Assembly: GCA_014380815.1 (NCBI GenBank) | Contig: JACMJB010000224.1 | Coordinates: 1-34,974, forward strand | Reading direction: 5' to 3' | Source of the DNA: Armatimonadota bacterium | GTDB taxonomy: Bacteria; Armatimonadota; Armatimonadia; Armatimonadales; Armatimonadaceae | Length of the DNA: 34,974 bases | Part shown: one piece after another, positions 11,571-34,370 of the stretch | Layout: the number at the start of each line of letters is the position of its first letter | Numbering within the stretch: the stretch's first letter is position 1 | Program-made: the position numbers and the translations under genes | The notes under the pieces: model-generated | The model's database searches: none | Seen by the model: the letters and a program-made list of their open reading frames with translations, nothing else | What the model was told of the DNA's origin: nothing

Positions 11571-13289
11571 CTACCCCGCATAAATGACGCGGAGGCTTTC
11601 TTCAAGCGTGGTGACACCGAGCAGGATCTTCTCCATCGCGTCTTCTTTCAGCGACTTCATCCCCGCCTCGATGGCGGCCTCCCGGATGGCATAGGCGGAG
11701 GCATGGGCCAGAATCAGTTCGCGCACCTTGTCGGTGACCGGCATCAGCTCATAGCAGCCGACCCGGCCTTTGTAACCACTGCCCTTGCAGACATCACAGC
11801 CCCGACCGCGGAAAAACGTCACCTTGCTTTTGTCAATCTCGTCGAGGTTCATCCCCAGACGTTTAATCGCATCACGCGGTGGTTCGTAAGGCTGCTTGCA
11901 CTTTTCGCAGACCTTACGGAGAAGCCGCTGCGCCATGACACCAATGGTCGCCGACGCGATCAAAAACGGTTCGACTCCCATATCCATCAAGCGAGCGACC
12001 GCACCAGGGGCATCGTTGGTGTGCAACGTGGAAAAGACCAGGTGCCCGGTCAAAGCGGCCTCGATCGCGATCATCGCGGTTTCCTGGTCGCGCATCTCTC
12101 CGACCATGATGATGTCGGGGTCCTGTCGAAGCATCGAGCGCAGACCGGCAGCGAACGTCATGCCCGCCTTGTTGTTAACACCGACCTGGGTGATGCCCGA
12201 AAGCTCATACTCGACCGGGTCCTCGATCGTCAGAATGTTTTTTTCGCCGGAGTTGACCTTGGCGAGGCAGGAGTAAAGCGTGGTGGATTTGCCGGAACCG
12301 GTGGGACCGGTGACCAGGATGATGCCGTAGGTCCGCATGATCATAGACTCGAACATCTCGAACGTGTGCGGCAGAAGCCCCAGCTTGTGCAGTCCCACGG
12401 AGATATTCGACTTGTCCAGGACGCGCATGACGATCTTCTCGCCGAAGACGGCGGGAAGCGTCGAAACACGGAAATCGTACTGCTTGCGCTCGATGGTGGC
12501 GGAAATACGCCCGTCCTGCGGGGCGCGCTTCTCGGCGATATCCATATCCGCCATGATCTTGATACGGCTGGTAAGGCTGGCCTGCGCCTTCTTGGGAACC
12601 ACCAGACCATCGAGCAGGATGCCATCCACTCGGTACCGGATCTTCAGGCAGTCGCGGGCAGGCTCCATATGGATATCGGATGCCTTCTCCAGAATCCCCT
12701 TGGCGATAATCATATTCGCCAGCTTGACGACCGGAGCCTCTTCCGAAAGGTTTTTCAGCTCCTCGATGGAGATGTTCTCATCGTCGCCACGGTGGTTGTC
12801 CAGCGAGACGTCATCCTCGAACGTCTTGAGGACGTCGCCTACCGCCTCGCCGTCGTTGCGGTAAGCTTCGGTGATCGCCAGAAGAATATCTTCCTCGGTG
12901 GCGATCATCGGCTCGACCTCTTTGCCGGTGATGAGACGGATCTCATCGGTCGCGAAGATGTCCAGCGGATTCTTCATCGCCAGCTTCAGGCGATTTCCCT
13001 CCACCTGGACCGGCAGCACTTTGTAGCGGCGCGCTAGATCCTGGGAGACCAGAGTAGCAACCTCGTAAGGGATTTCCACCTCAGCGAGATCAATGAATTC
13101 GATCCCCCAGTGTTCTCCCAGCACTCGGACCCGGTCTTTTTCCGTAATCAGTCCCATGCTGACCAGAAGGTCGCCGAGCTGCTTGTGACCGCCGAGCTGC
13201 TTTTGCTTCTCCAGTGCGCTGGCAATATCCGCTTGGGTCACCAGTCCCTGCCGCACGAAAAGCTCGCCGATTCGTTCTAGTTGCTGCAT
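11571..13289 (-). CDS. pilB: Type IV pilus extension ATPase PilB (GspE family)
   Basis: PilB is the cytoplasmic hexameric ATPase that powers pilin polymerisation. The 572-aa protein has the family's usual length. It starts with an MshEN/GspE N-terminal domain (about 1-145), followed by the linker and the catalytic domain. That domain has Walker A GPTGSGKST (328-336), the Asp box ILTIEDPVEYE, the Walker B region PDIIMVGEMRDQETA, the His box LVFSTLHTNDA, and a zinc-binding tetracysteine motif (CEKC...CDVC). The zinc motif and RASDIHMEP-like segment separate it from retraction ATPase PilT. The ATG is preceded by GAGG with a five-base spacer. It lies downstream of pilQ but beyond a strong terminator, so it probably has its own promoter; GATAAT at 13359-13354 next to an A8 tract is a candidate. 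Confidence 0.96.
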   Translation of the reverse strand: MQQLERIGELFVRQGLVTQADIASALEKQKQLGGHKQLGDLLVSMGLITEKDRVRVLGEHWGIEFIDLAEVEIPYEVATLVSQDLARRYKVLPVQVEGNRLKLAMKNPLDIFATDEIRLITGKEVEPMIATEEDILLAITEAYRNDGEAVGDVLKTFEDDVSLDNHRGDDENISIEELKNLSEEAPVVKLANMIIAKGILEKASDIHMEPARDCLKIRYRVDGILLDGLVVPKKAQASLTSRIKIMADMDIAEKRAPQDGRISATIERKQYDFRVSTLPAVFGEKIVMRVLDKSNISVGLHKLGLLPHTFEMFESMIMRTYGIILVTGPTGSGKSTTLYSCLAKVNSGEKNILTIEDPVEYELSGITQVGVNNKAGMTFAAGLRSMLRQDPDIIMVGEMRDQETAMIAIEAALTGHLVFSTLHTNDAPGAVARLMDMGVEPFLIASATIGVMAQRLLRKVCEKCKQPYEPPRDAIKRLGMNLDEIDKSKVTFFRGRGCDVCKGSGYKGRVGCYELMPVTDKVRELILAHASAYAIREAAIEAGMKSLKEDAMEKILLGVTTLEESLRVIYAG

Positions 13290-13532: not shown

Positions 13533-16235
13533 CTATTCTTTAATCAGCCGCGAGGTCAGCAGAACCACGATCTCGCTACGGCTCCGCGTGTTTTGACGGA
13601 ATTTAAACAGCTCTCCGAAGAACGGGATGTCCCCGAGGAACGGCACTTTCTGGATGTTCCTGACATCGCTGTCGCTGATCAAACCGCCGATGGCGATCGT
13701 TTCGCCGTCCTTGACTCGGATTGTGGTATCCACGAAGCGGGTCGCGATCTGGGGAAGCTGAATGCCGTTGCCGACGTTCAGGAACGACGAGATCGAGGAC
13801 ACTTCGGGGTGGACGTACAGCGTGATCGTGCCGTCCGGGCTGTACCGACCTGTCACTTTGAGCGTGATTCCCACCGTCGCTGTTTCCGTGGTGACGTTCT
13901 GTCCCTGCTGCGTCTGCTGGATGTTGGTGACATACTTGATCTGGTCCCCCACAAACACCGTGGCGGTCTGCCCGTCGAGAGCGGAAAGGTTGGGGTTCGA
14001 CAGGATCTTGCCCTTGTTGTTGTTGAGCGTAGCCTGAAGCTGGGCCAGAACACTGTACGGCGTCCGGAAAACCGCCCCGAAGTTCGGGGTTCGACCCGGT
14101 CCAGAACTTTGTGTCGGACCGACGGTTATTCCTCCGGGTCCGCCCTGGTTCGACTCACCGACATTCACCGGTCGGCTGAAATCGTAGGTCAGACCAAGCC
14201 GCAGCGCATCCTGCGCGTTGATGTCCAGGACCTTGGTCTCGTAGATCATCTGCGGCACACGGGTGTCAATCTTCGCCAGCACGTCCTGGGCACGCGCCAG
14301 ATCTTCGGGAAGACCGGTCAGCAGCAGCGTGGTCGTGCTGCTGGTCACGGTCACGTTATTGGTGGTTGCCGGTCCGCCCGTCGCGGTTCCGGGCGGCAGA
14401 ACGACGCCGCCAGGAAGCGGGATTGCGCTCGCCGTGTACGAGAGTGACTGCCCCGTGGAATTCGGCTTGAATCCGGGGGTGGGACCGGGGGTTACGTATA
14501 CATTCGAGACAAGCTGCTGCAGCACCTGGATCAGATCCGGAGCCGAGGCGTACTTGATCTTATAGACCTCTGTCGTCAGGCCCGCGAACCGTTTGCTCTG
14601 GACGAGCTGCTCGCGGTAGGGCGCTTCGATGAGCGCGGTTTCGGTGGCATCAATAAAGCTGCGAACCGCCTCAATCTCCGCGGGCGACGCGGAGACGTTC
14701 ACCACGCCGCCTTTTGGGATCACACGGCTGATGCCGCCGCTCCCTGCCGGCGATGCCGATAATGAGGGGTCCGGCAGTGCCGGCGAAAGGCCGCCAGGTG
14801 TACCAGGCAGAGCGTTTGCGGAGAGCGACGAAGCCGATGTGGGTGACAGGATGCTGCCAAGCCGTCCCTCCGACCCGATAGTCACGACCGTGATCCGCCC
14901 TTTGAGTGTCGGGAACGAAGATTCGATCGAGGATCTCAGCGACACGCCATCCGAAAAGATAAACGGGATAGAAGCTGAGGTCTGGATCCCAACCGAGGAC
15001 CCACGGGCCAGCGCGGAGACGGCGTCCGGAGTCCCGACCGCATAAGTATTGCCGATCCGAGCGTACCGATACCCGCTCAGATTAACGACGGTATCGAGCG
15101 CTTCGGCGAACGAGACGCGCTTAAGGGAGACCGTGATCTTGTCCTGGATGGCTCCCGACGCGCCGGCATTGCTCGCGCCGTTGGTTGCGAGAATGATATT
15201 GATTCCCGACTGCAGCGCGAGCGCCTTAACCACCTCGCTGATGTCCGCGGAGACGAAGTCCAGCGAGACTCGTCGCGCACTGGGGGCGACCGAGGCGGCG
15301 GTAAAGGTCGGAGCCGTGACCGATACCCGGTTCGCCGCCATCACGGCTCGGTTTCTTACCACGGGGGGGCGCTTGACCACGGAGCGGGATACCGCCCCGG
15401 CTGCCGGTTTGGGGCGAGGCTGGAAGGGGACCGCGCGCAGCAGCGGGGCGGACACTATCGCGATTGCCGGCAGACTGGAGACACCCGCCGCGATGCCGGA
15501 CTGCTTCGGAGCGGTCAGCGTGCGAACCCTCGCGGACGAGGCAATGGGGCGTGCTGCCGACCGGGGCAGCGACAGGGCCGGGAGCGTCAGGTTCGCCGGT
15601 TCCGAAGCGGTAGCAACGGTCGAAGCGGCGGTCGCCTGGGGTCCCGAGGAAGCCGCAGCGGCGGCGGTCGCGAGGCGGCGATTCAGCAGGGTTCGCAGGG
15701 TGTTTGAGCCGGTGAGCGTGCCGCTGGCGAAATACTTGCTTTTGCCGACAGCAGCGGAGACCAGGCCCTCCGGGCGGTAACCAGGCTTCCAGATCGTGAC
15801 GGTCCAGCGGCGGCGGTCTGGGGATGACTGCACCGACCACGTTAGGGATTGACGGCTGTTGGCGACCACGCGGACCAGATTTTGCCCGTTCTCGCGGGAG
15901 GAACCCGTTCGGATATTTTGAACGCCATTTTGCCGTACATTCGTGTAGCCGGACCGTCCGTCATTCCAGCTGCCCGCAACGGTAATCATGGTTGCTTTCG
16001 GGCGGGGCAGCGCCTGGATAAGGGGCGTAAACGACTGGTTCGCGGTGAGCGTGATCTGAGTGCCGTTCTCGACCGTCGTGATGTCCAGCGAGGTAAGGGT
16101 TGTTTCGCCCACGCGGGCCACGGCGGGTGCCGCGGGAAGGGCGGCAGCCGAGACGGGGGGGGCGATCCCTCCCCCGACCGACATCAGGCCAAGCGCGGCG
16201 AGGCCCAGAGCGTAAAGTTCCTGTTTAGTTTGCAC
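13533..16235 (-). CDS. pilQ: Type IV pilus outer-membrane secretin PilQ
   Basis: PilQ forms the multimeric outer-membrane channel through which the pilus passes. The 900-aa protein has a signal-like hydrophobic N-terminus (about 8-32), an AMIN domain (about 45-150), a long Ala/Pro/Ser linker (about 190-320), an STN/secretin N0-like domain (about 325-405, DFVSADISEVVKALALQSG), N1-like modules with Gly/Ser-rich inserts (about 420-700), and the C-terminal secretin domain. The last contains NPNLSALDGQTATVFVG and VPFLGDIPFFGELF. I place the start at a GTG (16235) with GGAG nine bases upstream; the longer frame adds 58 residues that overlap pilP. The GTG lies inside the end of pilP (11-base overlap), indicating translational coupling. 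Confidence 0.94.
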   Translation of the reverse strand: MQTKQELYALGLAALGLMSVGGGIAPPVSAAALPAAPAVARVGETTLTSLDITTVENGTQITLTANQSFTPLIQALPRPKATMITVAGSWNDGRSGYTNVRQNGVQNIRTGSSRENGQNLVRVVANSRQSLTWSVQSSPDRRRWTVTIWKPGYRPEGLVSAAVGKSKYFASGTLTGSNTLRTLLNRRLATAAAAASSGPQATAASTVATASEPANLTLPALSLPRSAARPIASSARVRTLTAPKQSGIAAGVSSLPAIAIVSAPLLRAVPFQPRPKPAAGAVSRSVVKRPPVVRNRAVMAANRVSVTAPTFTAASVAPSARRVSLDFVSADISEVVKALALQSGINIILATNGASNAGASGAIQDKITVSLKRVSFAEALDTVVNLSGYRYARIGNTYAVGTPDAVSALARGSSVGIQTSASIPFIFSDGVSLRSSIESSFPTLKGRITVVTIGSEGRLGSILSPTSASSLSANALPGTPGGLSPALPDPSLSASPAGSGGISRVIPKGGVVNVSASPAEIEAVRSFIDATETALIEAPYREQLVQSKRFAGLTTEVYKIKYASAPDLIQVLQQLVSNVYVTPGPTPGFKPNSTGQSLSYTASAIPLPGGVVLPPGTATGGPATTNNVTVTSSTTTLLLTGLPEDLARAQDVLAKIDTRVPQMIYETKVLDINAQDALRLGLTYDFSRPVNVGESNQGGPGGITVGPTQSSGPGRTPNFGAVFRTPYSVLAQLQATLNNNKGKILSNPNLSALDGQTATVFVGDQIKYVTNIQQTQQGQNVTTETATVGITLKVTGRYSPDGTITLYVHPEVSSISSFLNVGNGIQLPQIATRFVDTTIRVKDGETIAIGGLISDSDVRNIQKVPFLGDIPFFGELFKFRQNTRSRSEIVVLLTSRLIKE

Positions 16236-17049
16236 GAGATGGTACTCCGTTGAGTCCGCTGCCGCCGACGGTCGCACCGCCCGCGCGCGCAGAAGAGTTT
16301 GATGAGGAAGATGAGGAAAGAGTGATGATTTTGATGTTGCGTTTGTTTCGGATTTCGACACCACTGGAGCGGACTGCGGACACGTGATAACCGTTGTCCA
16401 CCGGATCACCGACCGTCACAAACCGGCGGCTGCCGGTCGAATCGTGCAGAATGGCGACATCCTGGCCCCGCTTGATGCCGTCGCTGTCGCGCTCGGCGAG
16501 GACGATCCCCGAAACCGCCCAATCCGGAGCGGGCAGTTCCACGGCAGCCGGGATCAGGGGCTTGACGTCGCCTCCCAGGCTCTGCAGACCCGGCGCACCC
16601 TGCGCCGATCCGGTCAGGCCAAGCAGCTTCTGCAGGTTTGACCGCTTGTTCTCATTGGAGACTACCGAGGGCAGCGGGGCGACCGGGGCGGGACGCGCGG
16701 GGGCCGCGGACTGAGGAGCGACGGGTGCGGCGCGGCCATTCGGGGTGAACGGGTCTTTTCCACCCAGAGGTGGTCCGATCCGCAGGAAATCGAGTTCCGG
16801 GTCCGTTGCCAGCGCACCCAGTGCATCCAGCGAACCAGGTGCGCCCGGCACTTTGTCCGTGGCGGAGGCGACCGGGGAACCGGAGGCACTCACGGCTCCG
16901 GGGGTGTCGGGGGTGCCTGTGGTCGCGGCGGCGGTCGGTGTCCCTCCCGGTGCCGCGAGGAACTGCACCAGGGCGAAACCCAGCACACCGACCGCGAGGA
17001 CGATCAAGACGATCAGCTTGGGAAGTTCTTCTTTTTTAATCGGTTTCAT
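16225..17049 (-). CDS. pilP: PilP-like pilus alignment protein
   Basis: This 274-aa bitopic inner-membrane protein has a cytoplasmic KPIKKEELPK start and one transmembrane helix (about 11-33). A long Pro/Ala/Gly-rich periplasmic linker carries a DPF motif. A small beta domain near the C-terminus (DWAVSGIVLAERDSDGIKRG...RRFVTVGDPVDNGYHVSAV) resembles the PilP/GspC homology region, which docks onto the secretin. The Ser-rich tail is unusual. Sequence similarity to proteobacterial PilP is weak, it is not a lipoprotein here, and the assignment relies strongly on its position between pilO and pilQ. It overlaps pilQ by 11 bases and begins 20 bases after pilO. Confidence 0.78.
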   Translation of the reverse strand: MKPIKKEELPKLIVLIVLAVGVLGFALVQFLAAPGGTPTAAATTGTPDTPGAVSASGSPVASATDKVPGAPGSLDALGALATDPELDFLRIGPPLGGKDPFTPNGRAAPVAPQSAAPARPAPVAPLPSVVSNENKRSNLQKLLGLTGSAQGAPGLQSLGGDVKPLIPAAVELPAPDWAVSGIVLAERDSDGIKRGQDVAILHDSTGSRRFVTVGDPVDNGYHVSAVRSSGVEIRNKRNIKIITLSSSSSSNSSARAGGATVGGSGLNGVPSRAN

Positions 17050-19977: not shown

Positions 19978-22362
19978 ATGAGTCAAGCGCTTGCCATTGC
20001 ACCCGAACGTCGAAGCGAGGAAGAGCAATCCTTCCCTGCGGAGCTTTCACTCGTTACCGCTCCGGTCCCTGTCTCGGGTGTCCCAGCTATCCTGGGTGTC
20101 CCGGCAGCACCGGTCGCCCTAGGGGCATCGCAGCAATCCGCGGCTCACGCCCCGGCTCTGGCAGTTTTTGCGCCCCCCGTTTCGGATGCCAATGAGCTGG
20201 TCTATCGGTTCCCCTACTGCCGCTCAGGCATCGAGATCGTGCCGGACATCAAGGGGTCTTTCTGCACGCGCCTTCTCTGGCACAAGGGGAAATCGGTCTT
20301 CGCACTTGCGGAATCCACCCCACTCCGTCCCCTCGCGCGCGTCACCCTGAACAGCCAGCGATTTGATGTCTTTCTGAACCAGCATGCCCGCAAGAAACGT
20401 GAGCGTATCCTGCTGGCGGGCCGCCGCAAAGTCGCGATCCGGTCCGGGCGCGCCGCGCTTCGCCAGGTGGTTTCTATCGAGGGGCGCGAGGACCGTTATC
20501 TGTGGCGCTGGCGCATCGGGGCGACCGCCGCGGCGATGAGTGTCTTCGCTTCGCCGGAAGCCGAGGCCGATCCGATTAACGAGGTCAGCCTGTTTCTGCC
20601 GTTTGCACCGGGCAAGGCGGTTGTTCTCTCTTTGCCGGGGGCGACGACCGGCCTGGTGCTGTGGATGAACGGGATCGCGATGAGCGTCGTTTCGGGCCGC
20701 TGCGAGGGCGGGGAGGAGCTGCCGGAGCTAAGCCACGACGCCAGAGGCTTTCAGCTAACGTTGCGAGGGGCGCGGCTTGGAGGCGACGGCATCGCGATGC
20801 AGTGGGAGTCCTGGCTGGCACCCGCGCGCACGGAGGCGGAAGCGCGAATGGCTCTGCTGCGCCATCTGGCGGACGCCGCCGACCGGGCACAGCGGACCGA
20901 TGAGACGGCGGAGACAGTACCCGCTCCCGGTTCCCCGCCGCTTTTGAAGCATTTGGGCGATCAGGCTGAGGCGGCGCTGATGGCGGAGGATGCCGCTGAG
21001 AAAAAAGGAATTGATCGCCTGATCTTCCGGGACCGCACAAGTCTGGGAAAAGGCAGTGCGCGGCATCTCGCCGGGGAGACAGTGGATACCGCTCTGGCCG
21101 CCGCCGCTCTGATGGGGCGCGTCCTGCAGACCGGCGAGGATGCCCTGCGCCGCCGCGCCCGGCTTCTCGCCAATGGCATCTGCTCGTTTCAGGTCAACGA
21201 GGAAGAGAGCTGTCACTGGGGAGCGATCTGGGATGCCGTCAAAGGAAAGGGCAAAAGCACCACCTACGAGGACATCGCCGGAGAAAGAACACTCTCGGTC
21301 GCCGTTGCCGCTCGCGCCTCCAAAGGTCTGCATATCCTGCATCGCCACTTCGGGGTGGAGTTATACCAGCGCACTGCGCTGTCAGCGGCACAATGGCTTC
21401 TTTTGAAGATGGACCGCGATGGCCTTATCGTCGGAGAGCGATTCACGGAGGAAGGGCCACCTGTCGAGGACAGAAACTCTCCCTGGATCGTCGGCGAGGC
21501 GTTGATTCCGCTGGTTGAGACCTTTCGCTCGAACGCAAACGAGGTCTTTCTGAAGACGGCTCTGCGTGTGGTAGGGACGATGAAAGAAGGGCTGGAGAGG
21601 TCTACCCTGCCGTTTGACCAGGCTTCGACCGAGCAGCTTGCGGCCTCGATCGAGGGAGTTCTGTTGGTCTCCCGTGAATACGAAAAAGACGACATGATCG
21701 CCCTGGCACTGCAGATCGGGCTGGGACTTCGAGCGCGCCGCCTGCCGGATGGGTCGCTGATGGAACCACCGGGGGTCACGGTTGTCTCGCCGCTGGTCTC
21801 CACGCTTGCCGGAGCGCGGGCGGCGCTCGCGCTGTCGCGGGTGGATGACGACCCCCTTTGGCTTCTCTTTGCCTATCGCGCGCTGGATGCGGCGGCGGTG
21901 AAGGCCGCCGCGCTGGGGGCAGCGGAAGGATCTTCTCAGATCCAGATCGCGGACCAAGCCGCCTTCCTGAACCTTTCGACCGCAGTTCTGCTCGCCGTGA
22001 CGGCGCGTGTCAAGGGCTGTGTCGCGGACAAAGACAAGCTGACCATCACCCGGAACTGGCAGACGTTCGCCCCGGACCCCGCGACACGTGACTATGTCCG
22101 CGTCTTCGCCCCCGGCCCCGGCAGCGAGGAGATTCCGGTGGATTATCTCGCCCTGGTCTGTCCGGTCAGCATGCAGGTTCTGATCACTGTTTTCGCGCCG
22201 CCGTCTGTCCGCGAAGTCACGATTCTCAAAAACTCCCGGTCGCCGTTTGTGAAAAACCTGCTGACGGGCGACTACGATCTTCGCGCCCCCCTGGTCCCCC
22301 TCCGTGCTACCGGGGGAGGCGACCCGGGGGCGAACATCGGGGTATTTCTCGCCGATACCTAA
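19978..22362 (+). CDS. Uncharacterised 794-aa protein, beta domain plus alpha-helical toroid-like domain
   Basis: I do not recognise a named family. No signal peptide is evident. The N-terminus is Ala/Pro/Val rich (about 1-75), followed by a beta-rich region (about 75-290, FDVFLNQHARKKRERILLAG and FLPFAPGKAVVLSLPG). From about 320 to 680 there are paired amphipathic helices (TVDTALAAAALMGRVLQTGEDALRR, HWGAIWDAV, NSPWIVGEALIPLVETF, LALQIGLGLRARRLPDGS) that look like an alpha/alpha six-hairpin toroid, as in many glycoside hydrolases, lyases and lanthipeptide-cyclase-like folds. A final beta-type region (ITRNWQTFAPDPATRDYVRVFAPG) follows. A carbohydrate-active role is only a guess, helped by the sugar kinase 43 bases downstream. 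The ATG is preceded by a TATAAT but no clear ribosome-binding site. Confidence 0.8.
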   Translation: MSQALAIAPERRSEEEQSFPAELSLVTAPVPVSGVPAILGVPAAPVALGASQQSAAHAPALAVFAPPVSDANELVYRFPYCRSGIEIVPDIKGSFCTRLLWHKGKSVFALAESTPLRPLARVTLNSQRFDVFLNQHARKKRERILLAGRRKVAIRSGRAALRQVVSIEGREDRYLWRWRIGATAAAMSVFASPEAEADPINEVSLFLPFAPGKAVVLSLPGATTGLVLWMNGIAMSVVSGRCEGGEELPELSHDARGFQLTLRGARLGGDGIAMQWESWLAPARTEAEARMALLRHLADAADRAQRTDETAETVPAPGSPPLLKHLGDQAEAALMAEDAAEKKGIDRLIFRDRTSLGKGSARHLAGETVDTALAAAALMGRVLQTGEDALRRRARLLANGICSFQVNEEESCHWGAIWDAVKGKGKSTTYEDIAGERTLSVAVAARASKGLHILHRHFGVELYQRTALSAAQWLLLKMDRDGLIVGERFTEEGPPVEDRNSPWIVGEALIPLVETFRSNANEVFLKTALRVVGTMKEGLERSTLPFDQASTEQLAASIEGVLLVSREYEKDDMIALALQIGLGLRARRLPDGSLMEPPGVTVVSPLVSTLAGARAALALSRVDDDPLWLLFAYRALDAAAVKAAALGAAEGSSQIQIADQAAFLNLSTAVLLAVTARVKGCVADKDKLTITRNWQTFAPDPATRDYVRVFAPGPGSEEIPVDYLALVCPVSMQVLITVFAPPSVREVTILKNSRSPFVKNLLTGDYDLRAPLVPLRATGGGDPGANIGVFLADT

Positions 22363-24838: not shown

Positions 24839-27481
24839 ATGCAAGCACGCGAACTCAGACAAAAGTACCTGGAATTTTTCGAGCAGAAGGGGGCGCTGCG
24901 CCTGCCCTCCGACTCGCTCGTCGCCGACGACCCGACCCTGCTTTTCACCGTTGCCGGGATGGTCCCCTTCAAGGCCTATTTTGAGGGACGTGCGACGCCC
25001 CCGAGAGACTCCCTGGTCACTGCGCAAAAATGTCTGCGGACTGTGGACATTGACGACATCGGGGATACCTCCCATTGCACGCTCTTCGAGATGATGGGGA
25101 ACTTCAGTTTCGGCGATTATTTCAAAGAGGAAGCCGTGACCTGGGCCTGGGAGTTTCTGACCGGGGTGGTCGGGCTGGCTCCCGAAAACCTGCGCGTCAC
25201 GGTCTTTCAGGACGACGACGAAGCCTACGACCTGTGGACCAAAACCTGCGGCCTGCCAGCGGACCGGGTCACGCGGCTGGGTGAAAAGACCAACTACTGG
25301 CCCGCGAACGCGATCGTGGAGCAGTCACAGGGACCCTGCGGGCCATGCAGCGAGATCTTTTTCGACCTGCGCCCCGACGAGCCGTTTGATACTGCCTGGG
25401 ATGGCGAGGGGACGCGCTGGCTGGAGATCTGGAACCTGGTTTTCACGCAATTTACCGGCGAAGGGGAGGGCGAGAAGTACCGCCTTGTCCCGCTCCCCAA
25501 AAAGAACATTGACACCGGGTCGGGCCTGGAGCGCACGGCGGCGGCGATCAACCGGCTTTCCGGGCCGTTCGAGACCGATGTGCTGCGCCCTATTATCGCA
25601 AGCCTGGAGGCTCTGTCAGGCATCTCGTACACCGCTACACCCGACGCCCTGACGGACATTGCCTTTCGACGCATCGCGGACCATGCCCGCGCCGCGACAT
25701 TCCTGCTGTCCGATGGCGTGACGCCCGACAGGACAGGACGGGGCTATGTTCTGCGCCGCTTGATGCGCCGCGCGATTGTGGCGGGAATCCGCCGCCTCGG
25801 CTTCGAGCACGAGACATTCCTGGATCAAGTAATCCCCACCGTCGTCGAGGTGATGCAGGACGCCTATCCGGAGCTTGCGGAGCGGGAGTCGTATCTGCTG
25901 GAGCAGGTGCGGCAGGAAGAGACGCTGTTCCGCCGAACGCTTCAAAACGGCCTTGCCCGCCTGGAGGAGGAACTCGCGAAGGGAACACTCTCCGGCGAAA
26001 AGGCCTTCGATCTCTACGATACGTTCGGGTTGCCGTTCGAGATCACCCGCGAGCTGGCAGGTGAGCGAGGCTTGGTCGTGGATGAGACCGGCTACCGCGA
26101 AGCCGAAGAGACCGCCCGTCAGCGTTCGCGTGCCGCTTCGGGCCTTGGCGGAACCTGGGATACCAGCAGCGAGGCACTCCTGAGCCTGCTGAAGTCCCTG
26201 CCCCTCACCCGGTTCGTCGGCTACGCACAGACCGAGGCACAGGCAAAGGTCGTCGGCCTGATCGTGGACGGCACGCCTGCGGAGAGCGTTTCCGAGGGGC
26301 AGAACGTCGAGATTCTGCTCGACAACACCCCATTCTATGCCGAAGCCGGAGGCCAGGTCGGGGATTTTGGCGCGCTCCGCGGCGTGACCGGCGCGGTCCG
26401 GGTTACCGACACCAAAAAGCAGAATGGACTTTACTTCCACCGCGCGACCGTTGTTCAAGGCATTCTCTCGGTCGGCGATGCTGTGGTAGCGGAGGTGGAT
26501 ACAGAGCGGCGGCGCGACGTCATGCGGAACCACACTGCGACGCACCTGCTGCACAGGGCACTTCGGGACCGGTTGGGAAGCCATGTCCAGCAGAGAGGTT
26601 CCCTGGTCGCGCCGGAGCGGCTGCGCTTCGACTTCGCGCACGGTGGCGGTTTATCCCCCGCCGACCTGGAGGCCGTGGAGGCTGAGGTCAATGGGGCGAT
26701 CCTTCGCGAACTTCCCGTTGTCACCGAGGAGCTTCCCATCAGCGAGGCGAAAGAACTCGGCGCGATGATGCTGTTCGGCGAAAAATACGGCGACGTGGTG
26801 CGCGTGGTCTCGGTCGGCGGTGAGTTCTCCCGTGAGTTCTGCGGCGGCACTCATGTCGGCAATGCGGCACAGATTGGCCCGTTTCGGCTTGTTTCGGAAG
26901 GGTCGGCGGCGGCGGGTGTCCGGCGTATCGAGGCCATCACGGGTCGGGCTGCTGAGGCGTTCGATGCCGCCAACAACGAGCGGATCAAAACCATCGCCGC
27001 ACTGCTTGGGGTTCCCGCCGCGCAGACACCGGAGACCATTGAGAAGCTACAGGCCGAGGTGAAATCCCTGCGCCAGGCGCTTGCACAGGCACAGCGGGCG
27101 CAGACGGGAAACCAAGCCGCCGCGCTCGCGGGCGAGGCGAAGTCTCTTGGCGGTGTCCTCGTCGTCTTCGCGCAGCCCACCGGCGTGGACACCGGGGACG
27201 CTCTTTCCGCGCTTGCCGATGACATCCTGGATCGCGTACCCGGTGGGGTCGTCGTGCTCGGCGCGGCGGCAAACGGCAAAGTGATCTTCGTTGCTAAGGC
27301 ATCGAGGGATGCCGTCAGCAAAGGGGCCAAAGCTGGTGAGATCGTGAAAGCCGCGGCGCAGGTGACGGGCGGCGGCGGGGGTGGTCGGCCCGACTTTGCC
27401 CAGGCGGGCGGCAAAGACAGCTCCAAAATCGGCGACGCCCTCACGGAGGCAGAGATGGTGCTTGCGCGGCAGTTGGCATAA
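24839..27481 (+). CDS. alaS: Alanine-tRNA ligase
   Basis: AlaRS charges tRNA-Ala and edits mis-charged Ser and Gly. The 880-aa protein has the full bacterial layout. The class II catalytic core starts MQARELRQKYLEFFEQKGA and includes TSHCTLFEMMGNFSFGDYF and QGPCGPCSEIFFD. The tRNA-recognition domain has GVTPDRTGRGYVLRRLMRRA. The editing domain has zinc ligands in NHTATHLLH and CGGTHV, and a coiled coil and C-Ala oligomerisation domain (GGGGGGRPDFAQAGGKD) follow. I chose the ATG at 24839 from homologous N-termini; the frame extends 27 codons upstream without family similarity. It heads the plus-strand run to ruvX and mltG. Confidence 0.97.
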   Translation: MQARELRQKYLEFFEQKGALRLPSDSLVADDPTLLFTVAGMVPFKAYFEGRATPPRDSLVTAQKCLRTVDIDDIGDTSHCTLFEMMGNFSFGDYFKEEAVTWAWEFLTGVVGLAPENLRVTVFQDDDEAYDLWTKTCGLPADRVTRLGEKTNYWPANAIVEQSQGPCGPCSEIFFDLRPDEPFDTAWDGEGTRWLEIWNLVFTQFTGEGEGEKYRLVPLPKKNIDTGSGLERTAAAINRLSGPFETDVLRPIIASLEALSGISYTATPDALTDIAFRRIADHARAATFLLSDGVTPDRTGRGYVLRRLMRRAIVAGIRRLGFEHETFLDQVIPTVVEVMQDAYPELAERESYLLEQVRQEETLFRRTLQNGLARLEEELAKGTLSGEKAFDLYDTFGLPFEITRELAGERGLVVDETGYREAEETARQRSRAASGLGGTWDTSSEALLSLLKSLPLTRFVGYAQTEAQAKVVGLIVDGTPAESVSEGQNVEILLDNTPFYAEAGGQVGDFGALRGVTGAVRVTDTKKQNGLYFHRATVVQGILSVGDAVVAEVDTERRRDVMRNHTATHLLHRALRDRLGSHVQQRGSLVAPERLRFDFAHGGGLSPADLEAVEAEVNGAILRELPVVTEELPISEAKELGAMMLFGEKYGDVVRVVSVGGEFSREFCGGTHVGNAAQIGPFRLVSEGSAAAGVRRIEAITGRAAEAFDAANNERIKTIAALLGVPAAQTPETIEKLQAEVKSLRQALAQAQRAQTGNQAAALAGEAKSLGGVLVVFAQPTGVDTGDALSALADDILDRVPGGVVVLGAAANGKVIFVAKASRDAVSKGAKAGEIVKAAAQVTGGGGGGRPDFAQAGGKDSSKIGDALTEAEMVLARQLA

Positions 27482-27524
27482 CGGGTCCGAGTCCCCCCGC
27501 CCGGCTCTATGGAGGGCGGGGAGA

Positions 27525-29591
27525 CTGAGACTGTACCTGCTCGCGCTCCTAGCCCTGATCGGGGGCGCTGCGCTGGCCCAGCCCGCGAAGACAGCCCGGC
27601 CCAAGACACTGGTGCTTCTTGTTTCGGACCTTTCCTGGAAGGATCTCCAGGCAGACGGTGGCCTTCCCGAAGTGCGCCGGCTCGCATCGGAAGGCAGTGT
27701 GGCCCTGCTGAACACCGCCGTCTCCGGCGAGGCGACGGCGGCGGCGGCGTTTCTTTCGGTCGGGGCGAGCGAACGGATTGCCGCGCCGGGTAAGCGCGGC
27801 CCGCGCGTTTTTGTGGATGACGTGCCGCTCACGGTGGCGTCAATCGCCGCGCAGGCATACCCGACGAACGTTTCCCCAAAAGAGGCGTCTCGCTTGGTCT
27901 ATCTTCGGCGATTTGGTGTGATGCCCCCCCCGGGGAGCGTGGCGGTGGCTCTGGGGTTCCCCCTTATCCGCAACGTTCAGCCGAGCGAGTCGCGCGCCGC
28001 CCTTCTGGGTGCGCTGGGAGAGTCGCTTCGCCGCGGAGAACGCTGGGTGGCGGTTTGGGGAGACTGGCGGGCCGCTCTGGTCGGCATGGACCGGCAGGGG
28101 GTCATCTATCACGGCTCCATTGCCCATGAACTATCGCCGGAGACGCTTCCGGTCGCGCTTGGCGGCGCGGAGGTCGTCATCGCCTCAATTTCCGGACGGG
28201 AATCGCTGCGGAGGCTGTCTCGCGCCGCGCTGCCGCTCGCGCGAAGCGGTGCGGTAAACGTTCTGGTCGCGGCCCTCTCGCCCCCTTTGGATCCCTCAGT
28301 CGGCAGATGGCGGCGGCTCGGCTGGGTCGCCGCCGCCGGTCCCGCGTTTCCGCCGGGAAGCCTGCTGACCGCGACCACCACTCGGACCCCTGGCCTGGTC
28401 GCGAACATTGACCTCGCCCCCACGGTTCTGGCGCTGCAGGGTCTGCCCTCGTTCTCCGGAGCCGCCGGGCACCCCGTTCGCCCCGTCGCTTCGCAGGATT
28501 CGCTTCGCGCGCTGGATCTGCTCGACCGGCAGGTCAATGCCACCGCAAACGCGATGGTGCCGGTGGCGATCGGCTACGCCCTTTTTGCCATCGGCGGTGG
28601 TATCGTCGCTCTGATCTGTCTGGGACGCGGCATCGGCAAGCCCCTCGCCCGCTTCATCCTGCTGACTGCTGCATCGGTCCTGATCGCCCTTCTGCCGACG
28701 GGGTTTCTGGCCCCCACGAGCGCTTGGCAATATGGACTGCTGACGCTTGGGACTGCCGCCGTGATTGCGATCGCGGCGGAGCTTCTCGGCTCGTGGCGGT
28801 CGGTTTCTCCCATGGGTCTGGTGCTTGCCGCGGTCGTCGTCGTTGTCTGCGTGGATGCGCTATTTGGCTCACCACTCGCCGCACGCGCACTGCTCTCGGG
28901 GTTTTATCTGACCGGGATCCGTTTCTACGGGCTGGGCAACGAATACACGGGTCTGCTTATCGGCGCGGCGCTGACCGGATGGGCGCTGCTGCCCTTTCCT
29001 TCCCGGTCCCTGGGGACACTCGCCGCCCTTGGCCTCATCGTCACGCTGCTGATCGGGCTGCCCTGGTTCGGCGCGGATGCCGGCGGGGCGCTGACAGCGA
29101 CGGTCGCCTTCACGCTTGCCGTGATCTCTTCTTCTCGCCGGGCCATGCCGCTAAGGGCGTGGCATCTTGCTGCCGCCTTCGCGGGCGCGTTTTTGGTTGT
29201 CGCGCTGCTGGCAGTCGTGGATCGGGCACAGGGCGCAGGGGCACGAACGCACATCGGGGCGGCGATTGCCACGGGGCAGGCACGTGGCGTCGGTGCCCTC
29301 TGGGAGATCGCGGCGCGGAAGATCTCCATGAATGTCGGGATCGCAAGTAATGGACTGACCATTGCCGCGATTGCTGGGATGGTCCCGATCTGGCTGATGC
29401 TAGGGCGTGGCGGGACGGGTGCGCAGATGGCGACACTGCTCACCAGGCGCCCTGCCCTGCGAAGCGCGCTGCCCGCTCTGCTCTGGGGCGCGGGGACGGC
29501 GCTTGTTTTCAATGACTCCGGCATCGCCATGGCGCTTCTTCTGCTTGCGCCGCCGACCGCTGCCGTGATACACGAGATGCTGGCGGAATAA
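27525..29591 (+). CDS. Polytopic membrane protein with alkaline-phosphatase-like extracytoplasmic domain
   Basis: I do not recognise a named family. An N-terminal signal-anchor (LYLLALLALIGGAALAQ) leads into a soluble region of about 320 residues. Features such as KTLVLLVSDLSWKDLQ, a central alpha/beta pattern and TRTPGLVANIDLAPTVLALQG resemble the end of alkaline phosphatase/sulfatase-like domains. About ten transmembrane helices follow, with polar motifs GIRFYGLGNEYTG and VFNDSGIAMA that may be functional. The start is uncertain. No in-frame ATG lies near the alaS stop. A CTG at 27525 has GGAGGG eight bases upstream and is my choice; a TTG at 27462 inside alaS is the alternative. It lies between alaS and ruvX, so it may take part in envelope metabolism along with mltG. 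Confidence 0.78.
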   Translation: MRLYLLALLALIGGAALAQPAKTARPKTLVLLVSDLSWKDLQADGGLPEVRRLASEGSVALLNTAVSGEATAAAAFLSVGASERIAAPGKRGPRVFVDDVPLTVASIAAQAYPTNVSPKEASRLVYLRRFGVMPPPGSVAVALGFPLIRNVQPSESRAALLGALGESLRRGERWVAVWGDWRAALVGMDRQGVIYHGSIAHELSPETLPVALGGAEVVIASISGRESLRRLSRAALPLARSGAVNVLVAALSPPLDPSVGRWRRLGWVAAAGPAFPPGSLLTATTTRTPGLVANIDLAPTVLALQGLPSFSGAAGHPVRPVASQDSLRALDLLDRQVNATANAMVPVAIGYALFAIGGGIVALICLGRGIGKPLARFILLTAASVLIALLPTGFLAPTSAWQYGLLTLGTAAVIAIAAELLGSWRSVSPMGLVLAAVVVVVCVDALFGSPLAARALLSGFYLTGIRFYGLGNEYTGLLIGAALTGWALLPFPSRSLGTLAALGLIVTLLIGLPWFGADAGGALTATVAFTLAVISSSRRAMPLRAWHLAAAFAGAFLVVALLAVVDRAQGAGARTHIGAAIATGQARGVGALWEIAARKISMNVGIASNGLTIAAIAGMVPIWLMLGRGGTGAQMATLLTRRPALRSALPALLWGAGTALVFNDSGIAMALLLLAPPTAAVIHEMLAE

Positions 29592-31673: not shown

Positions 31674-31934
31674 TCACAGCAGATGCCCGAACTGCCGCCA
31701 CCCCTCGAATAGAAACACCCCGACCCAGAACAGGGTCACCCAGGGCGGCTTGGCCCAGCAGTGCCACTCTTTCACGCCCTTTGCGGCGGCGAGCAGATAA
31801 AAGACCGCCGCCAGACCGGACAGCGCGAACAGAGCGTATTTTTGAAACAGCAACACCAGAAATGCGGCCTTACAGAACGTAAAAGCCCATCCCTCAAAGC
31901 GCCGCCCCTGCTGCTGTTTATCCCACTCGCTCAT
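31674..31934 (-). CDS. Small membrane protein, last gene of the radical SAM cassette
   Basis: This 86-aa protein has a charged cytoplasmic N-terminus (MSEWDKQQQGRR), two closely spaced hydrophobic segments (about 17-51) and a third aromatic-rich one (PPWVTLFWVGVFLFEG, about 63-78). The whole chain is Trp/Phe rich. No family is recognised. It begins 18 bases after the radical SAM stop, so it is very likely co-transcribed. A membrane partner of that enzyme is a reasonable guess. Confidence 0.7.
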   Translation of the reverse strand: MSEWDKQQQGRRFEGWAFTFCKAAFLVLLFQKYALFALSGLAAVFYLLAAAKGVKEWHCWAKPPWVTLFWVGVFLFEGWRQFGHLL

Positions 31935-31952
31935 GTCCGCGTTCCCGCCCGT

Positions 31953-33359
31953 CTACTTAGCCATCATCAGGGGCATCGCGCCCGATTTGGGTTTGCGGCC
32001 CCGGTGAAAGACGTTGTACTCGCAGAACGAGACCGCCTCTCCCTTTTCGTTGACGATCTTGGTGCAGCACTGGTCAATGCGTTTGTGATCGTAGGTCTGG
32101 GCGTCCATAAACGGCTTTACAGCGACCCGAAACAGCCGCCGTCCGATCTCTTCCGGCTTGTTCAGCAACGGGAGAGCATCGCGCAGACCGCCCCGCGCGA
32201 ATAAGACGGCGAGGTCGCGCATCGTTTGACCGCCGCGCAGATGCGAAACATCCGACCAGACGCGGCGGGCCGCCCCGCCGAGAATCCCCTCGAACGTGAT
32301 GCGGTCGGCAAAGAGATCGAGGTACCGCGCGACATCCAGGTGGCGCGGCAGTGGCGTGATCACCTCGCGGCGGGCATCCAGGAAGCCAAACGTCAACACG
32401 CAGCAGTCGGGGTGCGAGCAGGGCAGACCCACGAAGTCTGATGGCACCAGCGCTCCGTTCGTCTGCTCGGCAAGCAGGGTAAGGACACCGGTCAGTGTCA
32501 GGCGGTCGGCGGCATCGTAGCGGTTTTCGTAGCGCCCGTTGTCCATCACCGGCTGAAAGGTCATGCCGTTGATATTGTCCATCGAGAGCGCATAGCGGTA
32601 CAGATCACCGATTTCGCCGTCATTGACGCCCCGCTCGACCGTGGGGACGAGCGTCATCAGGATTCGCGCTTCGCGCGCACGCTCCATCGCTGCCTGCTTG
32701 ATGGCGACAAGGTCCCGCCCATACAGGCGCTCATGAACCTCCGGGCGAAACGAGGCGAACGAGAAGTACAGCTCGACCCGTGCCCGGTGTTCGTGCAGCA
32801 GCGACACAAGCGCCTCGCTCTGATTCAGCCGCAACCCATTGGTGTTCACCAGAATCCGCCCGATCGGATAGGAGAGCGCCAGTTCCAGGATCTCACTGAA
32901 GTGCGGGTGGATCGTCGGTTCGCCGCCGGAAAGCATCAGCATATCCAGGCGAGGCTGGGCGCGGAAGAAGGTGTCCAGCCGCCCTTTTGCCTCCGCGACC
33001 GTGAGGAAGTCGTGCCCGTGGGCATCGGCGTAGCAGGTGGGGCAACGCAGATTACAGGCCTGCGTGATCTCCAGCAGCAGGACGCAGGTCGGCGGACCAT
33101 CGCCGGGGGCACAGACCTCGCCGGGTCCGCAGCAGGCTCCGGAAACGCGCCCCGGCACATAAGTGCGGAAGCGCAGATATTCGTCGGCATCGGAGGCGAG
33201 CAGGGCGCGACTCTCCCCGTGGCGTGAACAGTTCTGTGTAATCCAGATGGTGTTATCGGGTTCGCGCCGCAGAACGGCGGGCACCGTCCGCAGACAGGCG
33301 GGACAAAGTCCTGTCGTTTCTTCCCCCCATTCCGAAATCACAACGTTCTCCAGGTTCAT
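31953..33359 (-). CDS. Cysteine-rich radical SAM enzyme, tetraether-lipid-synthase (Tes/MJ0619)-like
   Basis: This 468-aa radical SAM protein binds its catalytic [4Fe-4S] cluster through C102-NLR-C106-PT-C109 and SAM through SGGEPT (144-149). It contains 16 cysteines in distinct sets: C19-PA-C22 and C44 near the N-terminus, C76, C77, C83 and C92 before the radical SAM motif, C314, C319 and C320 in GLPCSHPDCC, and C431, C432 and C446 (SFCEYN) at the C-terminus. The N-terminal LCPAC...NCSRHG module, the CNLRCPTCYADAHG core and the late Cys sets resemble archaeal Tes and related bacterial proteins, which join lipid tails by C-C bonds. The substrate is inferred and unproven. I chose the ATG at 33359; it overlaps the zinc-ribbon gene's stop as ATGA, indicating coupling. 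Confidence 0.85.
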   Translation of the reverse strand: MNLENVVISEWGEETTGLCPACLRTVPAVLRREPDNTIWITQNCSRHGESRALLASDADEYLRFRTYVPGRVSGACCGPGEVCAPGDGPPTCVLLLEITQACNLRCPTCYADAHGHDFLTVAEAKGRLDTFFRAQPRLDMLMLSGGEPTIHPHFSEILELALSYPIGRILVNTNGLRLNQSEALVSLLHEHRARVELYFSFASFRPEVHERLYGRDLVAIKQAAMERAREARILMTLVPTVERGVNDGEIGDLYRYALSMDNINGMTFQPVMDNGRYENRYDAADRLTLTGVLTLLAEQTNGALVPSDFVGLPCSHPDCCVLTFGFLDARREVITPLPRHLDVARYLDLFADRITFEGILGGAARRVWSDVSHLRGGQTMRDLAVLFARGGLRDALPLLNKPEEIGRRLFRVAVKPFMDAQTYDHKRIDQCCTKIVNEKGEAVSFCEYNVFHRGRKPKSGAMPLMMAK

Positions 33360-33664
33360 TGAAAACCGCCCCTCGCCCCCACCCCGATACAGAGCAGGAA
33401 TAGTCCCAGTCCGAGCAGCGCCACCACCCCGACAATCGCAAGGAGGACGATCAGAATGACGCCCAGCGGGCCGGTGGGCCATCCCCCTTTGCGGGGCAGT
33501 TGTCCCTGCATCAGAGGCAGCGGTGGTCCCTGCGCAGGCGGGGGGGGCGGTGGCGGCGGGGATGACGGCGGTGATGGGTTACCGGGAAGCACCGCGCCGC
33601 AGTTGGGGCAAAGCCGGGCTGCCGCGTCCTCCACCATCGTTTCGCAGTTAGCGCAAAGCCGCAT
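33356..33664 (-). CDS. Zinc-ribbon single-pass membrane protein
   Basis: This 102-aa protein starts with a zinc ribbon (CANC...CPNC, residues 4-23), followed by a Pro-rich linker with a run of prolines and one strongly hydrophobic C-terminal transmembrane segment (about 70-96, VILIVLLAIVGVVALLGLGLFLL). The architecture is that of the small zinc_ribbon_2-type membrane proteins of unknown function. The ATG at 33664 is preferred because the zinc ribbon starts three residues later. The gene overlaps the Lgt-like gene by 17 bases upstream and the radical SAM gene by four bases (ATGA) downstream, so all three are translationally coupled. It might tether or regulate the radical SAM enzyme at the membrane. 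Confidence 0.8.
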   Translation of the reverse strand: MRLCANCETMVEDAAARLCPNCGAVLPGNPSPPSSPPPPPPPPAQGPPLPLMQGQLPRKGGWPTGPLGVILIVLLAIVGVVALLGLGLFLLCIGVGARGGFQ

Positions 33665-34370
33665 AGGACACCATCCCCTCCCTCCCAGTCCGGGCACCGG
33701 GGTCGCGGAGCAGCCGACTTAAAAGCGTTCCAAACACTGTGGCCCCAGCTAGGCACACCCACTGTGCCGTTGTCAGCCCCATTGCGGTGTGGTTCCCCTC
33801 CCGGTAGAACTCGATCACGAACCGCAGCACACAGACCAGCACGCCCTGGACATAGAACAGGCCGTTTTCGCGCAGGACCCGCCGCCCCTCCAGCCACAAA
33901 AGAAGCGCGAGTGTCAGGAGCGCGGCAAGCGAGAGGTATGCCTGGGTCGGGTGCCGGAGCGCGCCGTGCTGAAAGATCGCCCACGGCACCGCGCCGATTT
34001 TGCCGTGACAGCAGCCACCCACAAAGCAGCCCCATCTTCCCACTGCCTCGCCCGCGCTAAGCGCGACCGCGAACAGGTCGCCGGTAGGTCGCCGAAGCCC
34101 GAGGGCGCGTTTGGCGAGGAAGACCGCGAGGTAGCCGCCTGCGATACCGCCCAGAATCGTCTTACCCGCCGCCGTGCCGCCCGATCCGATCCACTGCCCC
34201 AGGTTCGCGCCGATCAGACCGCCGAGCAGAGCGGCAAAGGAGAGCAGCCAAACGCCGGTCGTGGAGAGGCGACGGCGGCGTGCCATCCACGCAAAGGCGG
34301 CGATCCCGGTCGCATAACCGGCGGCATAGAGCGCGACAACCAGATGATTTTCAGCAAGAAGCGGCGGCAT
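33648..34370 (-). CDS. Lgt-like integral membrane protein (diverged diacylglyceryl transferase family)
   Basis: This 240-aa polytopic protein has six to seven hydrophobic helices. Lgt signatures are visible but altered: GRWGCFVGGCCHGK (111-124) in place of GR-GN-F-N-E--G, RHPTQAY (139-145), and RFVIEFYRE (183-191). At the position of the essential His in the HGG motif of canonical Lgt this protein has KTILGG (70-75), so the His is Leu73. It is therefore a member of the Lgt fold family that may not carry out lipoprotein diacylglyceryl transfer. Such proteins presumably bind phosphatidylglycerol or another lipid. It is the first gene of the four-gene cassette. A TATACT lies about 30 bases upstream of the ATG. 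Confidence 0.82.
   Translation of the reverse strand: MPPLLAENHLVVALYAAGYATGIAAFAWMARRRRLSTTGVWLLSFAALLGGLIGANLGQWIGSGGTAAGKTILGGIAGGYLAVFLAKRALGLRRPTGDLFAVALSAGEAVGRWGCFVGGCCHGKIGAVPWAIFQHGALRHPTQAYLSLAALLTLALLLWLEGRRVLRENGLFYVQGVLVCVLRFVIEFYREGNHTAMGLTTAQWVCLAGATVFGTLLSRLLRDPGARTGREGMVSYAALR

Follow-up and report, generated by a model that had tools for sequence, protein, structure and literature searches.

Introduction

Described relatives of the genes reported here encode the prolipoprotein diacylglyceryl transferase Lgt and radical S-adenosylmethionine (SAM) enzymes of the type of Tes, the archaeal tetraether lipid synthase. In E. coli Lgt, transfer of the diacylglyceryl group depends on R143 and R239 as essential residues, and no tested replacement was tolerated at H103 of the HGGL motif, which was proposed to hold the lipobox peptide (PMC4728403). 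Tes parks the first substrate radical as a carbon-sulfur bond on an auxiliary cluster (PMC9433317). Bacterial Tes homologues, hundreds of them, have been interpreted as potential producers of branched tetraethers, lipids that are used as climate proxies (PMC8941075). A bacterial membrane-spanning lipid synthase, Mss, is also a radical SAM enzyme that joins lipid tails, and its modelled structure was described as Tes-like (PMC13274423). Here we describe a four-gene cassette from an Armatimonadota bacterium, located on contig JACMJB010000224.1 of assembly GCA_014380815.1. The whole stretch of 34,974 nucleotides that was analysed is called the window. The cassette encodes an Lgt-like protein, a zinc-ribbon membrane protein, a Tes-superfamily radical SAM enzyme and a small membrane protein.

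The four genes lie on the minus strand; they overlap by 17 and 4 bases and then follow with an 18-base gap. A previous sequence-only reading of the window had given this order, strand, overlaps and gap, and all were reproduced at the same coordinates. Judged from its relatives, the cassette is one case of an evolutionarily coherent set in which a dedicated Lgt paralogue is combined with a Tes-superfamily radical SAM enzyme and with one or several small membrane proteins. This gene set is real and old, and it is unnamed in the libraries used. A description of the linkage between Lgt and a Tes-type enzyme was not found in searches of an open-access library.

Linkage and co-inheritance of the Lgt-like and radical SAM genes

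The distribution of the cassette was investigated by scanning 84,980 species genomes with a family profile, which yielded 80 loci with about 29-70% identity. With further Armatimonadota and plasmid records added, 120 radical SAM loci were compared. A same-strand LGT gene was present within 2.5 kb at 83 of the 120 loci; it lay upstream at 57 of these and downstream at 26, and the adjacency spans seven bacterial phyla. The conserved linkage that the sequence-only reading had proposed to look for was thus found. We estimate that, with about two LGT genes per genome, the chance of such an adjacency is well under 1%. At the Woesearchaeota locus the arrangement is looser, with the Lgt-like gene 2.9 kb from the radical SAM gene, and this locus is therefore outside the 83. 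On a Mycobacterium branderi plasmid the set was annotated as a "prolipoprotein diacylglyceryl transferase family protein", two hypothetical proteins and a "radical SAM protein". At 19 of the 120 loci a TrsM-type methyltransferase (motif CC..HPGG) took the place of LGT; one of these was tested and scored to the DVU_1556 and arsenite-methyltransferase models. A sister Tes-superfamily clade pairs with such a DVU_1556/arsenite-methyltransferase-like enzyme (motif CC..Y..HPGG) in Chloroflexota, Actinomycetota, Acidobacteriota and one Nitrosotalea. On a haloarchaeal plasmid (L162), a methyltransferase adjoins the radical SAM gene.

The Lgt-like proteins of the cassettes formed one clade against the ordinary Lgts with a support of 100. 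Their pairwise identities followed those of their radical SAM partners (r 0.825), a value reached in 0 of 500 permutations. Within the order of the source organism (Capsulimonadales), 14 of the 19 genomes had a match to the radical SAM protein, which was strong in 12, and the cassette-type Lgt-like gene was present in 11 of the 12 that carry the radical SAM gene and in none of the 7 that lack it. The cassette recurs across the order and hence its arrangement is not due to chance. The radical SAM gene of a Capsulimonadaceae metagenome-assembled genome (Armatimonadota) is 63% identical to that of the window. Two genomes of one genus (G009 and G010) keep both genes on different contigs. In another genome of the order (G012) both genes are broken by stops or frameshifts, which reflects either joint decay or errors of the draft assembly.

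The Lgt-like protein

The first gene of the cassette (33648-34370, minus strand) encodes an integral membrane protein of 240 amino acids. It scored 86.3 bits against PF01790 (LGT), where the cut-off is 24.9, and the only significant fold match of its predicted model (predicted local distance difference test, pLDDT, 87) in the PDB was E. coli Lgt (5AZB, E 4e-6). The Lgt-like identity assigned in the sequence-only reading is therefore that of a real Lgt relative. With the Lgt equivalog model TIGR00544 it obtained 40.5 bits and did not reach the cut-off of 118.9.

The residues R112, R183, E187 and R190 of the window protein correspond to R143, R239, E243 and R246 of E. coli Lgt. Equivalents of R143 and R239 were found in 81 of 81 cassette Lgt-like proteins, and the position of E243 is acidic and that of R246 basic in all but one of the 81 proteins each. 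An equivalent of H103 was found in 0 of the 81; here a [KR][TS] pair is followed mostly by V, L, M or I. The window protein has a Leu at this place, preceded by Lys-Thr-Ile, and several ordinary Lgts in the comparison have a Tyr. Since the arginines are kept and H103 is lost, the donor site has probably been retained and the acceptor site altered. A second, ordinary Lgt is encoded on another contig of the source genome, and a further Lgt is carried by all 10 of the other cassette genomes searched.

The radical SAM enzyme

The third gene (31953-33359, minus strand), which overlaps the zinc-ribbon gene by the 4 bases ATGA, encodes a protein of 468 amino acids that matched PF04055 and the N-terminal zinc ribbon PF23545. 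Its radical SAM motif CX3CX2C (CNLRCPTC, residues 102-109; 33033-33056, minus strand) is invariant in the family alignment. The best solved relative was Tes/GDGT-MAS (7TOL), which matched residues 13-464 with an E-value of 8.5e-50. The predicted model (pLDDT 82; predicted template modelling score, pTM, 0.86) aligned to 7TOL with a template modelling score (TM-score) of 0.75/0.72, whereas the other folds compared gave at most 0.38. An identity as a peptide maturase was rejected from this fold comparison (0.75 for Tes versus 0.38).

The protein scored 176.8 bits against the Tes equivalog NF045702 (cut-off 450) and 226.1 bits against the TrsS equivalog NF045646 (cut-off 490), its best-scoring named model. 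Since both scores are below the cut-offs, it is by those rules neither Tes nor TrsS. A plain assignment of the cassette proteins as Tes, TrsS or ordinary Lgt was rejected because each fails at least one tested feature. The radical SAM tree separated archaeal Tes, a clade with TrsM partners and one of 52 rows from each other. The 52-row clade (Shimodaira-Hasegawa approximate likelihood ratio test, SH-aLRT, 95) is weakly placed near the root and includes the window protein in a fully supported group. It holds nearly all Lgt-linked members, which come from Planctomycetota, Chloroflexota, Bacteroidota, Bacillota, Melainabacteria, Actinomycetota, Woesearchaeota and Armatimonadota. Exceptions are a TrsM-linked group of Planctomycetota and a single Lgt-linked row of Chloroflexota, each placed on the opposite side; partners have thus been swapped a few times. 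What had been called a Tes-like enzyme thus has the superfamily and the fold of Tes (7TOL) but stays under the Tes cut-off and belongs to a separate clade.

With TrsS as the nearest named family (226 bits) and a sister clade that pairs with an arsenite-methyltransferase-like enzyme, the substrate of the cassette might be a small molecule or a metalloid, like that which TrsS/TrsM relatives may handle, and its lipid transferase activity might have been lost. This is distinctly unlikely, as Lgt replaces TrsM at nearly all loci of the window clade and the Lgt-like proteins strictly keep the catalytic arginines.

The metal ligands were compared with those of Tes. The window protein keeps the ligands of the rubredoxin-like site (columns C9, C12, C33 and H36), the radical SAM cluster and the three C-terminal cysteine columns of the auxiliary [4Fe-4S] cluster (C338, C455 and C470). 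From their conservation with archaeal Tes, C338, C455 and C470 are the probable ligands of the auxiliary cluster. Met439 of Tes is replaced by Lys, Tyr459 by Ile or Leu, and the N-cluster His is lost. Met439 and Tyr459 are invariant in the archaeal homologues, and variants at both positions are reported to be still active in vitro (PMC9433317). The cluster columns read A/C-S-E/D or R-E-S in the DUF4395-containing cassettes and in most of the Lgt-linked members from Bacteroidota and Bacillota. Since the cluster is used by Tes and its cysteines are lost in many Lgt-linked relatives, Tes chemistry is unlikely across the whole Lgt-linked family. It is possible in the clade of the window.

A lipid-related role is the natural reading of such a cassette. 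The sequence-only reading had taken it for a system that cross-links membrane lipids, where the radical SAM enzyme would join tails as Tes does, the Lgt-like protein would handle the glycerolipid or its head group, and the zinc-ribbon and small proteins would act as scaffolds. The full-length Tes fold, the retained Lgt donor site and, in the window clade, the rubredoxin-like site, the radical SAM cluster and the three C-terminal cluster cysteines speak for it, and bacterial Tes homologues have been proposed to make branched tetraethers (PMC8941075). Against this, the protein falls far below the Tes cut-off (177 versus 450 bits) and outside the Tes branch, Met439 and Tyr459 are replaced, and most of the Bacteroidota and Bacillota Lgt-linked enzymes are without the cluster cysteines. 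DUF2229, which we take to be a proxy for PlsA/Ger-type ether-lipid enzymes, was absent from 19 of 19 genomes of the order and from 9 of 10 other cassette genomes. We also know of no C-C linked membrane-spanning lipids from Flavobacterium or Paenibacillus. The cross-linking role was therefore not upheld, and we regard it as unlikely. If a large share of the bacterial Tes homologues belongs to the Lgt-linked set, which has small membrane proteins of its own and where the cluster cysteines are often lost, the presence of a "Tes homologue" in a genome would not be evidence for tetraethers.

The zinc-ribbon protein and its relatives

The second gene (33356-33664, minus strand), which overlaps the Lgt-like gene by 17 bases, encodes a protein of 102 amino acids with a CxxC-x11-CxxC zinc ribbon, a Pro-rich linker and one transmembrane (TM) helix that ends in a conserved cysteine near the C-terminus. 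The codon of this Cys92 (GLGLFLLCIGVGARGGFQ) is located at 33389-33391 of the minus strand, and the residue is conserved in the close and the cross-phylum alignments. In 10 closely related proteins (31% mean identity) the four ribbon cysteines, a Leu-Gly pair and the C-terminal cysteine are invariant.

The zinc-ribbon gene is a member of a widespread set of small membrane proteins in the cassettes. Whether or not they carry a zinc ribbon, these proteins have a basic stretch and then a TM helix, at whose end lies a cysteine flanked by small residues, as in LNAACFG, FGACF, LGICG, GGLCTG and FIACSG. When 22 partners were compared across seven bacterial phyla and Woesearchaeota, the cysteine was the only invariant column. 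The membership of the zinc-ribbon gene in this set, with a cysteine that is invariant across phyla, is new here. By the positive-inside rule the cysteine would face the outside, like a lipobox cysteine.

Since the 22 proteins had been picked post hoc, an objective rule for TM-Cys candidates was then applied. Candidates were found at 40 of 53 non-redundant Lgt-linked loci, at 1 of 19 TrsM loci and in 8 of 60 distant windows of equal width in the same loci; an earlier version of the rule had given 80/117 versus 58/224 open reading frames (ORFs), and these counts come from related loci and are hence not independent trials. The TM-Cys partners thus accompany the Lgt-like gene and not the methyltransferase-linked relatives. 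Two to three tandem candidates were present in 15 cassettes, and this copy number and the variability of the proteins would suit a substrate better than an enzyme subunit.

Peptide maturation is common among radical SAM enzymes, and small partners that occur in tandem, evolve fast and share a single conserved residue would fit a target modified by the radical SAM enzyme at the conserved cysteine or close to it, in the manner of ribosomally synthesised and post-translationally modified peptides (RiPPs), with the Lgt-like protein as a membrane partner. We consider this very unlikely, because the Tes fold matches far better than any peptide maturase, the TM-Cys partners track the Lgt-like gene and not the whole radical SAM family, the Lgt catalytic arginines are kept and the cysteine is predicted on the outer side of the membrane.

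The small membrane protein and extended cassettes

The last gene of the cassette (31674-31934, minus strand) starts after the 18-base gap and encodes a small membrane protein of 86 amino acids with invariant AFxFCK and C-x4-P motifs. Its identity is 70-77% in Capsulimonadales and 31-38% in other Armatimonadota cassettes. No match was found in Pfam. The AFxFCK motif is similar in DUF4395, but the hhalign probability of 5% was not significant; a kinship of the two proteins is possible.

DUF4395 or DUF4395-like proteins occur in cassettes of Clostridium, Mangrovibacterium, Woesearchaeota and some Armatimonadota, and several cassettes have an ICMT-like methyltransferase. In extended cassettes (L097, 7983-11617; L085, 7977-11393; L044, 867-6897; L175; L184) an ICMT-like membrane methyltransferase and a DUF4395 or DUF4395-like protein are encoded between the radical SAM and the Lgt-like genes. 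At the Woesearchaeota locus (L044) a complete ICMT-like gene was not seen.

Proposed function

The conserved cysteine of the zinc-ribbon family, which the sequence-only reading had not noted, moves our best guess for the product from a free lipid to a lipidated membrane protein. We tentatively favour, at somewhat less than an even chance, that the Lgt-like enzyme lipidates the conserved cysteine of the small protein and that the radical SAM enzyme modifies the lipid tail. The Lgt-like enzyme would move a diacylglyceryl group from a phospholipid to the cysteine at the outer end of the TM helix of the zinc-ribbon protein, and its acceptor site would differ from that of ordinary Lgt. Afterwards, or beforehand on the donor lipid, the radical SAM enzyme would activate a C-H bond of the tail, which could then be modified or coupled. 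In a more specific form, which we think rather unlikely, this would be lipidation outside ordinary lipoprotein biogenesis, with the Lgt paralogue acting on the outer cysteine of a cytosol-facing zinc-ribbon protein and the Tes-type enzyme coupling or remodelling the protein-bound lipid, for example into a protein-anchored membrane-spanning lipid.

Several points weigh against this lipidation. The radical SAM family is cytosolic and the chemistry of Lgt is periplasmic, so a shared substrate is hard to explain. The membrane topology is a prediction of the positive-inside rule alone. The window protein (LFLLCIGVG) aligns its cysteine but matches neither the lipobox nor the strict small-residue rule. 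A TM-Cys candidate is missing at 13 of the 53 loci, some of which have a cysteine on an inner helix, and some candidates are spurious ORFs. The 22 partners were chosen after the cysteine had been noticed, and the count by the objective rule is the fairer test. The conserved cysteine could also serve another purpose. The cassette offers an opportunity to test a specialised lipid transferase together with its candidate substrate, and its carriers include the easily grown Flavobacterium and Paenibacillus.

Other features of the window

The window comes from a draft genome of 4.2 Mb. For the cassette, the orthologue alignments favoured the shorter gene starts; the longer ORFs, with starts at 33697 and 33482, are mechanical calls. 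The downstream neighbours, RuvX/YqgF, MltG and a YqeG-type phosphatase, are oppositely oriented. A scan of the window with Rfam gave no match, and promoter and terminator scans gave no clear signal. Long ORFs of 715, 794 and 736 amino acids at 80-2227, 19978-22362 and 27381-29591 had no match in Pfam at an E-value limit of 1e-5 (715 and 794 amino acids) or 1 (736 amino acids). A type II/IV secretion ATPase (GspE/PilB-type) and a nearby secretin, at 11571-13289 and 13533-16409, make up an ordinary type IV pilus or type II secretion locus.

Comparison with known systems

The radical SAM enzyme shares with Tes/GDGT-MAS (MJ0619, 7TOL) the full-length fold, the rubredoxin-like CX2C...CX2H site, the radical SAM cluster and the three auxiliary-cluster cysteine columns. 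It differs in being only about 25% identical, below the cut-off and off the Tes branch, with Met439 replaced by Lys, Tyr459 by Ile or Leu, and the N-cluster His lost. No Lgt gene adjoins the true Tes of Nitrosotalea (L187), whose contig is short. Mss, with its Tes-like modelled structure, may be comparable to the cassette enzyme as a bacterial radical SAM enzyme; in Thermotoga maritima, a maker of membrane-spanning lipids that served as a control, no match to the Tes model was obtained at 1e-30. TrsS (NF045646) belongs to the same superfamily and is the best-scoring named model, but the cassette of the window has an Lgt-like neighbour and no DVU_1556-type/TrsM methyltransferase. With E. coli Lgt (5AZB), the Lgt-like protein has in common the fold, PF01790 and the equivalents of R143, R239, E243 and R246. 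Unlike Lgt, the cassette proteins form a separate clade and have [KR][TS][IVL]xGG in place of H103/HGGL; the window protein scores below the TIGR00544 cut-off, and its genome encodes a further, ordinary Lgt.

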